Program-made: the position numbers and the translations under genes
DNA from: Mariprofundus sp. EBB-1
Lineage (GTDB): Bacteria > Pseudomonadota > Zetaproteobacteria > Mariprofundales > Mariprofundaceae
NCBI RefSeq assembly: GCF_003665155.1
Contig: NZ_RCFQ01000021.1
Span: 1 to 50,356 of the forward strand
Length of the DNA stretch: 50,356 nt
Reading direction: 5' to 3'
Notes under the pieces: model-generated
Told to the model about the DNA's origin: nothing
The model's input: only the letters and a program-made list of their open reading frames with translations
Databases searched by the model: none
Part shown: piece by piece, positions 38,694-42,780 of the stretch
Layout of the letters: every line of letters starts with the position of its first letter
Numbering within the stretch: position 1 is the stretch's first letter

Positions 38694-38778
38694 GCAAAAC
38701 ACTCAACTATTTAATCTTATTGTTCTTTTTTATCGAAAGCATTATTATGCCGCTGCTTAAAAAAAAGGAGCTCATTCA

Positions 38779-39540
38779 ATGCCGCACTATCGTCGATTTT
38801 CCGATGCCTCTGTCAGTGAAAAAATGTTGGACACTATGTTTCTCATTACCATTGGCTTGGGATACCTGTTTGCCCTAACCCATATGTACTTTTCCCATGC
38901 TGGCCGAGATGGTGAACCGGGACTCTCTGTAAAAGATGTAGAGATCGCCTATTTCGGTGAAGGTCATCAAACACGACTTGGTGCAGCCCTGAATGGTCCG
39001 ATGTTAGTGAACTTAGAAAAGCCGGAACAAAAAGATATCATTATTGGCTGGATCAATGCCGGAAAAGATGAAGATGAGTTCAACGAAAAAGTCGCCCCTA
39101 TTCTTAATAATAACTGTATTATGTGTCACTCTGCAGAAGCTGAAATGGGCCTACCGCATCTAACCAGCTATAAAGACGTCCTTAAACTAACCCATATAGA
39201 TACCGGGGCATCTATTCAGAGCCTGGTTCGGGTAAGCCACATCCATCTCTTTGGCATCGCCTTTATTCTATTCTTTGTTGGTAGAATATTCCTGTTATGT
39301 GAAATGTCGAAAACAGTGAAGCGAGTGACAGTGATTATTCCCTTTATCGCTATTTTACTGGATATTACATCGTGGTACGTCACCAAAATCATCCCTGGAT
39401 TTTCGTATGTTGTGGTCATCGCCGGTGCCCTCATGGGTATATCCCTGGGCATGCAAATTGTAGTTTCTATGTATCAGATGTGGATATACAAACCAAGAAC
39501 GGATGCACACACGTTATCAGAAGATGTAATGCATCAATAA
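38779..39540 (+). CDS. Membrane-anchored monohaem c-type cytochrome-like protein
   Basis: This 253-residue protein has one N-terminal membrane helix (about 20-38) and three or more C-terminal helices. Between them, a hydrophilic region carries a single haem motif CIMCH (113-117), probably periplasmic, with GLPHLTSY just after it. I do not know the name of the family. The arrangement suggests a quinol- or periplasm-facing electron carrier. AAGGAG stands 8 bases before ATG 38779. It heads a run of three cytochrome genes on the same strand. Confidence 0.75.
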   Translation: MPHYRRFSDASVSEKMLDTMFLITIGLGYLFALTHMYFSHAGRDGEPGLSVKDVEIAYFGEGHQTRLGAALNGPMLVNLEKPEQKDIIIGWINAGKDEDEFNEKVAPILNNNCIMCHSAEAEMGLPHLTSYKDVLKLTHIDTGASIQSLVRVSHIHLFGIAFILFFVGRIFLLCEMSKTVKRVTVIIPFIAILLDITSWYVTKIIPGFSYVVVIAGALMGISLGMQIVVSMYQMWIYKPRTDAHTLSEDVMHQ

Positions 39541-39657
39541 TCGCAGCAGCGAAATCATCTTTAACCCCAAGGTGTATTCATTGCGCTACGCATTGAAACA
39601 CTAAGGAACTAACATTGTCCTGTTCAACAATTATCGGGGCAAAAAAGGAGAAAAACT

Positions 39658-39954
39658 ATGAAACATACATACCTAATCCTGGCGGCAGCAGCCTGTTTCG
39701 GACTAAGCTCACAGGTTGCCATGGCCGATGGAATCAATGCAGAAAAACTTTATAAGAGCAAATGCAAGATGTGCCATAAGGTTGACGGCAAAAAATTTGG
39801 TCCTGGTTTTAAACAGATGAGAAGCGATCCAGCCGAGTTAAAAGAAATCCTCACAAACGGCAGCAAGAACAAGAAAATGAAAAGTTTCTCTAAAAAGCTT
39901 AACGAAGAACAGATCGACGCAATGGTTGCATTCATCATCGAAGCACAGCACTAA
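39658..39954 (+). CDS. Small class I cytochrome c
   Basis: This is a periplasmic monohaem cytochrome of 98 residues. It has a signal peptide ending VAMA, haem motif CKMCH (36-40), and a likely axial Met at about 74 in KKMKSFSKKL, followed by a closing helix DAMVAFIIE. It probably shuttles electrons to a terminal oxidase or reductase. The ribosome binding site is AAGGAG. It lies 117 bp after the membrane cytochrome and 70 bp before the triple-domain cytochrome. Confidence 0.88.
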   Translation: MKHTYLILAAAACFGLSSQVAMADGINAEKLYKSKCKMCHKVDGKKFGPGFKQMRSDPAELKEILTNGSKNKKMKSFSKKLNEEQIDAMVAFIIEAQH

Positions 39955-40024
39955 GTCAACCCTTGCACTCGGAACTCAAGTGGTAAATAGTTAAGCCCTA
40001 TCAACTTAGGGGAAGGAGAGTCTT

Positions 40025-40846
40025 ATGCAAATCAAATTATGGATCGGTATGGCAGCTGCTTTTATATTGTCACCGATGGTTGCTTCGGCAAGCGATACTT
40101 TAGATGGTAAGGCTCTTTATGCTGCCAGTTGTGCTTCATGTCATGGTGCAACAGGTGAAGTAAGCGCGCTGGGTAAGAGCTTAAAGCCTTACCCGGCACG
40201 TAACCACAGAGCGATTGCTGGTCTGATCAGCAGAGATGAAATGCGTCGTATTATATCATATGGTGTGGCCGGAACAGCCATGACACCAAAAAAATATGAA
40301 TTGGATGCATTAGAGATCGAAGCTGTTATTGATTACATCCAAACATTTGAGTACACACCCAACATTGCCAATGGCAAAAAACGTTTTCATGATGTGTGTG
40401 TAAGTTGCCATGGTGTAGATGGCCGTGCACAAACAGGCATGGGCGCTAAAAATCTGGTTTATTCCAAGCTCAACCTACAAGAAATTGTTCATACCATGCG
40501 TTATGGTCGCCCTGGCACCATGATGACCAGCAAGCGTCATCAACTAACGAATGAAGATATCGCAGATGTTGCTGACTATGTGTACAACCTGCGCTATATG
40601 TCTAATGCAAATAACGGCAAGAAACTGTTCAACAATAAATGTAGCTCTTGCCATAGCACCCCTCGCGCCATCAAGCTGATTGGCAATGCTGCTGAAAAAC
40701 GTGTTGTCTCTGATCTTGATGATCGTTTGCTTGATCTACGCATTCGTCATGGTCGCCATGTTGATCGTGCCGGCAAAGGTGTTGCTCACCTTACATCTGA
40801 TGAAATTCAAGACATCATGGCTTATATGAGGAAGAACACACAATAA
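40025..40846 (+). CDS. Triple-domain (trihaem) c-type cytochrome
   Basis: This is an exported 273-residue protein with three tandem cytochrome c domains, with haem motifs CASCH (36-40), CVSCH (125-129) and CSSCH (206-210). Domains 1 and 2 have a downstream Met (AMTP, MMTS) that could be the axial ligand; in domain 3 the candidate is less clear. The signal peptide ends about SASD. It may link an upstream electron source to oxidase. Its TAA stop overlaps the ATG of hemN as TAATG, so the two are translationally coupled. Confidence 0.88.
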   Translation: MQIKLWIGMAAAFILSPMVASASDTLDGKALYAASCASCHGATGEVSALGKSLKPYPARNHRAIAGLISRDEMRRIISYGVAGTAMTPKKYELDALEIEAVIDYIQTFEYTPNIANGKKRFHDVCVSCHGVDGRAQTGMGAKNLVYSKLNLQEIVHTMRYGRPGTMMTSKRHQLTNEDIADVADYVYNLRYMSNANNGKKLFNNKCSSCHSTPRAIKLIGNAAEKRVVSDLDDRLLDLRIRHGRHVDRAGKGVAHLTSDEIQDIMAYMRKNTQ

Positions 40847-42285
40847 TGACAAACACTGTTACCGATATTAGCGCCTCCCAATTGGGGGGCGCTAATCTTT
40901 TCAACCTAGAGATTATTAAAAAATACGATAAAGCCGGGCCACGTTATACCTCTTATCCTACTGCCCCTATGTTCCATACAGGCATTGGTGCCAAGCAATA
41001 CCGCGACACCTTACAACGCGTGGCATCTGATGATGCTCCGCTGTCGCTTTATATTCACATTCCTTTCTGCAATACCATCTGTTATTACTGCGGCTGCAAC
41101 AAGATTGTGACCAAGCAATATGATCGTGCTGAGCCTTATCTGAAACTGCTATTAAAAGAGATCGATCGTGTTGCCGATAACATGCGCGATAAGCATGGCA
41201 ATGATTGTCAGCGTCCGGTCACCCAACTCCATTTTGGTGGAGGTACGCCTACCTTCATGCATAACGATCAGATGCGTGCAATTATGAATAAGCTGCGTTC
41301 CCGTTTTCAATTTGTTGCAAAAGATGATGGTGAATTCAGCATTGAAATTGATCCACGTGAATGTGATGAAGACACCGTTGCAGTTCTGGAAGAGATCGGT
41401 CTGAACCGCATGAGTATGGGTGTACAGGATTTCGACCCTATCGTTCAGAAGGCAGTCAATCGTATTCAAAGTAAAGAAGAGACCATGCGTGTATTATCAG
41501 AAGCACGTAATCACGGTTTTGAATCGATGAACATCGATTTGATGTATGGTCTGCCACATCAAACGGTGGAAACCTTTAATGCAACGCTGAAAACAATTAT
41601 CGAATTCAGTCCGGATCGTATTGCGCTGTTTAATTATGCCCATATGCCGCACATGTTCATGCCACAACGTCGTATTGATGAAGCAGCTATTCCTACGCCA
41701 CAGGAAAAACTGAATATTCTCGAACATAGCATCAACACCCTGCTTGATGCCGGTTATGTCTTCATCGGCATGGATCACTTTGCCAAACCTGAAGATGAAC
41801 TCACCATTGCTCAGCGCGAAGGTAAATTATATCGCAACTTTCAGGGCTATAGCACACAGGCTGATTGTGACCTGATTGGTTTGGGACTGACATCCATCGG
41901 CTATACCGGCGGTGGTTTCTTCCAGAATGAAAAAGATATGGAAACCTATGCCGCAGCAGTTGAAGCGGATGAATTTGCGGTATTCCGTGGTTATATTCTT
42001 TCTGATGAAGATCATCTGCGTCGCCAGGTAATCATGCGTTTGATGTGTGATTTTGCCCTCAGTTACGAACCCTTTGAAACAGCGTTCAACATCAACTTCA
42101 AAGAACACTTTGCTGATGGTCTTGCTGACCTGCAGGAAATGGTCACCGATAACCTTGTTGAACTGCGTGAAGATGGGCTGTCAGTGTTACCGGCAGGACG
42201 TTTACTCATTCGTAATATTGCTATGGTATTTGATGAATACCTGCAAAAGAAGAAAGAGGGTTCTAACTTCTCGAAGGTGATCTAA
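40846..42285 (+). CDS. hemN: Oxygen-independent coproporphyrinogen III oxidase HemN
   Basis: This radical SAM enzyme makes protoporphyrinogen IX without O2. The cluster motif CNTICYYC (residues 75-82) is followed by GC, the typical HemN signature. LHFGGGTPTFM, EIDPRE and the GVQDFDPIVQKAVNRIQ stretch complete the family pattern. The length of 479 residues is that of E. coli HemN rather than the shorter HemW, which lacks the extra C-terminal part. It shares a TAATG with the triple-domain cytochrome. A good terminator follows at 42321-42346. Confidence 0.95.
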   Translation: MTNTVTDISASQLGGANLFNLEIIKKYDKAGPRYTSYPTAPMFHTGIGAKQYRDTLQRVASDDAPLSLYIHIPFCNTICYYCGCNKIVTKQYDRAEPYLKLLLKEIDRVADNMRDKHGNDCQRPVTQLHFGGGTPTFMHNDQMRAIMNKLRSRFQFVAKDDGEFSIEIDPRECDEDTVAVLEEIGLNRMSMGVQDFDPIVQKAVNRIQSKEETMRVLSEARNHGFESMNIDLMYGLPHQTVETFNATLKTIIEFSPDRIALFNYAHMPHMFMPQRRIDEAAIPTPQEKLNILEHSINTLLDAGYVFIGMDHFAKPEDELTIAQREGKLYRNFQGYSTQADCDLIGLGLTSIGYTGGGFFQNEKDMETYAAAVEADEFAVFRGYILSDEDHLRRQVIMRLMCDFALSYEPFETAFNINFKEHFADGLADLQEMVTDNLVELREDGLSVLPAGRLLIRNIAMVFDEYLQKKKEGSNFSKVI

Positions 42286-42320
42286 ATATTCAGAACACCT
42301 GCTAACCAAGCAACTAAATC

Positions 42321-42346
42321 AGGTCGGGCTTTGCCCGGCCTTTTTT
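42321..42346 (+). terminator. Rho-independent terminator after hemN
   Basis: AGGTCGGGC and GCCCGGCCT form a stem with loop TTT, followed by TTTTTT, about 35 bases after the hemN stop. The globin gene at 42379 must then use its own promoter or readthrough. Confidence 0.9.
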
Positions 42347-42378
42347 ATTCTTATTTCACCCATAAAGGAGAATAAACC

Positions 42379-42780
42379 ATGCAATTTACCAGTGATGCTC
42401 GCAGTTTTTATGAACGTATCGGTGGCGAAGCCCCGCTTCGCCTTTTAGTACTGCGTTTTTACCATCACATGCATGCACTGCCTGAAACGCAGGGCATTCG
42501 AGCCATGCATCAGACCAACCTTGCATCTGCACAGGATAAGTTGTTCATGTTTCTCTCCGGTTGGATGGGGGGCCCATCACTATATATTGAGAAATTCGGC
42601 CATCCTCGCCTACGCATGCGGCACATGCCCTTCTCCATTGGTGAGTCAGAACGCGATCAGTGGATGCTTTGCATGTCTCATGCCCTGGCAGATAGCTTTG
42701 ATGATAAAACGCTGCGAGATGAGCTTTACGAGACTCTTTCAGGTGTCGCCGACTTTATGCGCAACAAAGCCGATGGTTAA
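42379..42780 (+). CDS. Truncated haemoglobin, group II (trHbO-like)
   Basis: This is a small haem protein of 133 residues that handles O2 or NO. The group II signature GGPSLYIEKFGHPRLRMRHMPF is present, with the proximal His in RMRHMPF and a Trp (QWMLCM) at the G8-type position. FYHHMHALPE is a normal distal-pocket region. AAGGAG stands 10 bases before ATG 42379. Its place after three cytochromes and hemN suggests a role in oxygen handling or NO detoxification at low oxygen, which is an inference. Confidence 0.9.
   Translation: MQFTSDARSFYERIGGEAPLRLLVLRFYHHMHALPETQGIRAMHQTNLASAQDKLFMFLSGWMGGPSLYIEKFGHPRLRMRHMPFSIGESERDQWMLCMSHALADSFDDKTLRDELYETLSGVADFMRNKADG

Follow-up and report, generated by a model that had tools for sequence, protein, structure and literature searches.

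A gene cluster in Mariprofundus sp. EBB-1 encodes a predicted inner-membrane monohaem c-type protein (MHP) together with two periplasmic cytochromes and an oxygen-independent enzyme of haem synthesis. We lean, if only slightly, towards the reading that MHP is the inner-membrane electron-transfer partner of periplasmic cytochromes that are fed by outer-membrane conduits. How electrons get from the Fe(II) oxidase of the outer membrane to the inner membrane is an acknowledged gap for neutrophilic iron oxidizers, with limited evidence on the periplasmic and inner-membrane components that take part (PMC12442390). MHP would be a specific and almost class-wide candidate for this gap, with defined periplasmic partners.

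Organization of the gene cluster

The window, that is, the whole stretch of DNA analysed (50,356 nucleotides from a Mariprofundus-type genome of 2.88 Mb), carries the cluster and a globin gene, five genes that run in one direction. The features are:

38779..39540, + strand: MHP, predicted inner-membrane monohaem c-type protein, 253 aa with a single CIMCH (open reading frame listing)
39658..39954, + strand: small periplasmic class I cytochrome c, 98 aa, CKMCH (PF13442, 2.8e-13)
40025..40846, + strand: three-domain periplasmic cytochrome c (triheme cytochrome), 273 aa, haem motifs CASCH, CVSCH and CSSCH (PF13442 in three stretches, 5.1e-33)
40844..40848, + strand: TAATG, overlap of the triheme cytochrome stop and the hemN start
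40846..42285, + strand: hemN, oxygen-independent coproporphyrinogen III dehydrogenase (TIGR00538)
42321..42341, + strand: intrinsic terminator between hemN and the globin gene, a 9-pair hairpin plus T-run
42379..42780, + strand: truncated (2-on-2) haemoglobin (PF01152)

The open reading frames bear out the original prediction, which had placed MHP, the small cytochrome c, the triheme cytochrome and hemN in this order, with TAATG common to the last two. By eye, the small cytochrome c has a signal peptide, and the run of five genes is bordered by a CCA-adding-enzyme-like gene before it and an msrA-like gene after it. The MHP of the closest named relative, a Mariprofundus MAG, is 96% identical. 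Among solved structures the triheme cytochrome most closely resembles CcoP; its assignment as CcoP was rejected, TIGR00782 giving 70.6 bits against a cut-off of 179.95.

The hemN product scored 606.9 bits with TIGR00538 (curated cut-off 324.95) and was the only protein of the genome above that cut-off. A HemF-family protein of 401 aa is also encoded (L130:1279-2484; G000:C1:87337-88107), with a PF01218 score of only 84 bits, so that HemN was dropped as the sole coproporphyrinogen oxidase; oxygen-dependent and oxygen-independent enzymes seem, from these matches, to coexist in the host. The globin matched PF01152 (Bac_globin) with 125.9 bits (1.3e-36); 2XYK was the nearest solved chain, along with 4UUR and 1NGK, and by its nearest relatives it may be classed as a group II truncated haemoglobin.

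Conservation of the cluster in Zetaproteobacteria

MHP was present in 34 of the 42 zetaproteobacterial genomes sampled. To count its partners we used the 34 zetaproteobacterial loci in which 3.6 kb or more of sequence lay 3′ of an MHP. The small cytochrome c followed MHP in 30 of them and the triheme cytochrome accompanied it in 29, both together in 28; hemN belonged to the cluster in 24, and 22 loci held all three genes with MHP. Scattering of these genes in relatives, which had been named as grounds for refutation, was thus not observed. M. micogutta and a relative each have the small cytochrome c gene twice in tandem (L007:10762-11470, L008:3576-4308).

Among 25 loci, 23 kept an overlap between the triheme cytochrome and hemN, in the form TAATG, TGATG or ATGA; the two remaining junctions lay at +1 and +3. 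In the window a GAGGA lies a few bases 5′ of the hemN start, within the triheme reading frame. Because the overlap is retained with three different sequences, its conservation suggests selection for translational coupling, in agreement with the earlier proposal that haem supply is linked by translation to the apocytochrome. Gene order and stop/start overlap are conserved across Zetaproteobacteria, and the arrangement is therefore not due to chance.

The globin accompanied the MHP cluster in only 10 of the 34 loci and lies behind a conserved terminator, which makes it a loose neighbour of the cluster that is probably transcribed separately. The hairpin at 42321-42341 folds alone and, as had been predicted, parts the globin from hemN with its T-run; five related loci have a terminator at the corresponding position, four of them with a changed stem sequence. 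Generic promoter and terminator scans by themselves performed no better than shuffles. Allowing up to two mismatches, no FNR-like box was found in the gap 5′ of the cluster (38694-38778); the same scan of the whole window gave 82 matches against 49 expected. Of the initial description as a low-oxygen electron-transfer module, the electron-transfer set was supported, whereas low oxygen was less so or not at all, given the lack of an FNR-type site upstream and the presence of a HemF-type gene; its sole supports are the oxygen-independent hemN and the microaerophilic lifestyle of the group.

The membrane protein MHP

In keeping with the earlier remark that the membrane protein belonged to no nameable family, MHP scored above threshold with no family of Pfam or NCBIfam. 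A PDB sequence search with the MHP profile returned nothing significant, and MHP had no match on plasmids. We built an AlphaFold2 model from 51 relatives, with a moderate mean pLDDT of 78.5. It contains four long helices, predicted to be transmembrane (residues 12-39, 146-171, 178-202 and 206-235), with the CIMCH haem domain between TM1 and TM2. The predicted topology is thus a four-helix one, and with the usual orientation the haem, which would be covalently attached through CXXCH, would face the periplasm. When the model was compared with solved structures, no fold had an E below 0.001, and the VIA-align Z values were at most 7.7, all to generic helical bundles, which does not imply a novel fold.

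We then compared two alignments, one of 51 type-A sequences and one of 19 sequences of all types, the types being about 35-45% identical. CXXCH was invariant in both, and the residues C113, C116, H117, H154, H156, D195 and W199 were shared by the two invariant sets. H154 and H156 belong to an SHIHLFG motif in TM2, and D195 and SW199 lie in TM3; on the cytoplasmic side, R6, E14, K181 and R182 are further invariant residues. Judged from the aligned sequences, conservation within the membrane is beyond that expected for a mere anchor. A haem-less homologue of the membrane part, which belongs to no Pfam family, was found in two genomes outside the group, at L136:5699-6367 and L137:5309-6163, where its operon also encodes two large dihaem cytochromes along with a monohaem protein; it keeps HAHLFG and DI/DV-SWW. 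Since such homologues retain the membrane motifs, the membrane histidines of MHP probably have a role apart from covalent haem. The weak MHP matches in genomes G078 and G359 were haem-less homologues and were not counted as members.

The host genome also encodes an MHP paralogue (L003:6721-7446; G000:C43) that is 70% identical and has no cytochrome neighbours. Its gene comes straight after that of a P-type ATPase and is followed by an lspA-like gene, a pairing repeated in L013.

Relatives of MHP adjoin outer-membrane conduits and hydrogenase genes

The comparative context search that the original prediction had proposed for the CIMCH membrane protein placed its relatives beside Cyc2, MtrAB and hydrogenase genes. 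In Methylococcales loci, MHP is often immediately preceded by the gene for a single-haem Cyc2-like protein of 440-470 aa, reading A(V/L/M)PSF(S/T/A)RQTG..C..CHTQ.FG.NLTPFG, mostly one substitution (S/T for A) away from the Cyc2 motif; Methylobacter has been reported to carry Cyc2 (PMC12211021, PMC12810054). Type-B MHPs, whose identity to the MHP of the window is about 35-45%, occur in further settings. One lies beside Cyc2 in L139. In L054, two of them follow a monohaem cytochrome, the decahaem MtrA and MtrB/PioB (PF11854, 1.6e-127), and this set stands back to back with a Cyc2-like gene and a type-A MHP (L054:8605-16642), so that a single locus holds two kinds of outer-membrane conduit. Another type-B MHP, from a zetaproteobacterium of the window's own family, sits within the accessory gene cluster of a [NiFe]-hydrogenase, together with HybE and a hydrogenase cytochrome b (L124:5029-12175). 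The MHP of L140, which is deep-branching, follows Cyc2 and precedes a small cytochrome c. In the tree, the Cyc2 pairings fall in separate parts of the MHP family, L140 being a long branch.

As features of Cyc2 we took the published motif AXPXFAR[Q/K][T/Y] (PMC8406198) before CXXCH, with PXL after and a length of about 365 aa or more. The host's own Cyc2 of 418 aa carries the motif (AIPAFARQT...CLSCH, AIPAFARQTGAACLSCHFQSFPSL) and is encoded outside the MHP cluster, elsewhere in the genome (L115; G000:C13). The motif occurred in 41 of the 42 zetaproteobacterial genomes sampled, and in none of the zetaproteobacterial loci examined did cyc2 lie beside the MHP cluster. In the phylum sample outside the Zetaproteobacteria, none of the 23 genomes with the Cyc2 motif had a true MHP (two had the haem-less homologue), and all four genomes with a true MHP were without the motif. 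Because each is absent from the genomes of the other in this sample, the MHP-Cyc2 pairing is lineage-bound and not obligatory. A phylum-wide co-occurrence was rejected, as it was carried by Zetaproteobacteria alone and failed outside them and the Methylococcales-centred sample. The latter comprised 121 genomes from the order of a Methylovulum genome: a type-A MHP was present in 49, a Cyc2-like gene in 34 and both in 22 (Fisher p = 7.5e-4, kinship between genomes ignored). In 18 of these 22 genomes the type-A MHP and the Cyc2-like cytochrome-porin gene were at most 4 kb apart; 27 of the 49 type-A genomes had no Cyc2 match.

The host genome also encodes a stand-alone Cyc2-type haem domain of 95 aa without a porin (ATPSFSRQV..CRTCH; L116:6025-6312; G000:C12), which adjoins a MerR-type regulator and a photolyase-like gene. 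At least five further zetaproteobacterial genomes have open reading frames of about 95-125 aa with its motif.

What recurs in these neighbourhoods is a predicted inner-membrane c-type cytochrome that lies beside a feeder or drain of periplasmic electrons, be it Cyc2, MtrAB, small cytochromes or a hydrogenase. Since the relatives of MHP adjoin outer-membrane conduits and hydrogenase genes, the neighbourhoods point to a part in moving electrons across the cell envelope, not to an oxygen response as such.

Proposed role and alternative explanations

In the model that we slightly favour, MHP would be a bundle of four helices that holds a conserved histidine pair and bears a single covalently bound haem c facing the periplasm, and would form, with the small and triheme cytochromes, a route for electrons from the periplasm to the inner membrane. 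The translationally coupled hemN would make haem, without O2, where the apocytochrome is made. In Mariprofundus the electrons would probably come from Fe(II), entering through Cyc2, a cytochrome-porin of the outer membrane, and would probably end up in the quinone pool (reverse flow) or at a terminal oxidase; the simplest chain would then run from Fe(II) through Cyc2, the small and triheme cytochromes and MHP to the quinone pool or oxidase. The iron role, the quinone contact, the direction of flow and the membrane partner of MHP are what we infer in this scheme. Several observations given above count against it: cyc2 does not adjoin the zetaproteobacterial cluster, MHP and Cyc2 occur apart in the rest of the phylum sample, many type-A genomes have no Cyc2 match, and the host's paralogue has no cytochrome neighbours.

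Other explanations were weighed against this one. The cluster could be a low-oxygen respiratory operon, in which MHP and the cytochromes pass electrons from bc1 to a cbb3 oxidase and hemN provides haem, with no link to iron or conduits. The cytochrome domains are of the cbb3/c-type class, with the triheme protein nearest to CcoP in structure, HemN is oxygen-independent and most Zetaproteobacteria have cbb3 oxidases (PMC6443915), but no oxidase gene occurred within the MHP clusters examined, the methanotroph relatives adjoin Cyc2-like or MtrAB genes and the upstream FNR-like site is absent, and we regard this operon as unlikely. That MHP accompanies differing cytochrome systems as well as hydrogenase accessory genes (L124), has a paralogue without cytochromes (L003) and keeps the invariant residues R6, E14, K181 and R182 towards the cytoplasm would suit a protein that is no electron carrier but senses haem or redox state, or helps to assemble c-type cytochromes or outer-membrane conduits. 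Such a function appears improbable, given a CXXCH that is invariant across all aligned sequences and a protein that has no signalling or known maturation domain, and clusters for conduits mostly require a redox partner in the inner membrane.

There is least to be said for an ordinary neighbourhood in which cytochrome genes happen to lie beside a haem-biosynthesis gene without forming a functional unit. MHP and the cytochromes do occur without hemN in L020, L021, L031, L035 and L038-L040, and the triheme gene was not found at L027 (M. ferrooxydans PV-1); yet order and overlap are conserved over many genera while the overlap sequences differ, which leaves this explanation very improbable.

Returning to MHP as the electron-transfer partner of conduit-fed cytochromes, a broader version of this role is tentative and rather doubtful. 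The MHP family could be a so far unrecognised and widely used redox hub of the inner membrane, with haem c and, buried at SHIHLFG, a second site for redox chemistry or a quinone. It would have been paired separately with the unrelated conduits Cyc2 and MtrAB and with some hydrogenases, and would be where electrons enter the inner membrane in zetaproteobacterial Fe(II) oxidation. The HXHLFG and DI/DV-SWW motifs that the haem-less homologues keep suggest that the membrane site also serves a purpose by itself. The family is wide enough to be studied in genetically tractable methanotrophs, and the invariant residues given above are those to mutate.

Comparison with known systems

Our literature search, which covered main texts, found no description of a zetaproteobacterial MHP-cytochrome-hemN cluster or of an MHP-Cyc2 pairing. 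Inner-membrane partners of conduits that are known or have been proposed are CymA/ImoA, the PCC3/PCC4 protein and the Irc set. CymA and ImoA, of the NapC/NirT family, are multihaem proteins with one transmembrane anchor. Like MHP, they are inner-membrane c-type cytochromes proposed to link quinones to periplasmic cytochromes; MHP differs by its one haem and four helices, and with one CXXCH and no PF03264 (Cytochrom_NNT) match it was rejected as a CymA/NapC/NirT protein. The inner-membrane proteins of PCC3/PCC4, proposed to exchange electrons with quinones, have five transmembrane helices and two WX3HX13H motifs (PMC5566968). They share with MHP a hydrophobic nature, an inner-membrane location, the lack of an annotated family and genes beside outer-membrane conduits. 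In contrast, MHP has four transmembrane helices, CXXCH and one HXH motif, and its identity with these proteins was rejected on the four helices of the model and the absence of HX13H pairs from the alignment. The ircABCD genes of Gallionellaceae likewise encode a small set of periplasmic cytochromes with inner-membrane proteins as a candidate middle of the Fe(II) pathway; they differ in comprising diheme and monohaem cytochromes, a cytochrome b and a hypothetical protein, with no CXXCH membrane protein reported (PMC12442390).

The closest likeness is to a putative electron-transfer cluster of Methylobacter (June 2026, PMC13322032), described in the available part of that report as a monohaem cytochrome, the decahaem MtrA, an MtrB/PioB porin and a "4 transmembrane" inner-membrane monohaem protein. 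The available text names neither Zetaproteobacteria nor Cyc2, and the triheme-hemN cluster was not found in it. As described there, Methylobacter_1_02048 shares with MHP four transmembrane helices, a single haem and the lack of a signal peptide. L054 has the same gene order, a likeness by description and not by sequence, and its MHP-family proteins have the position after monohaem-MtrA-MtrB, the four transmembrane helices and the one haem of the Methylobacter protein. One MHP type thus appears, as far as the available text goes, to be known already as this unnamed protein. Unlike the Methylobacter cluster, that of Mariprofundus is without MtrAB. MHP would thereby tie the methanotroph conduits of the 2026 report to iron oxidizers through one shared inner-membrane part.
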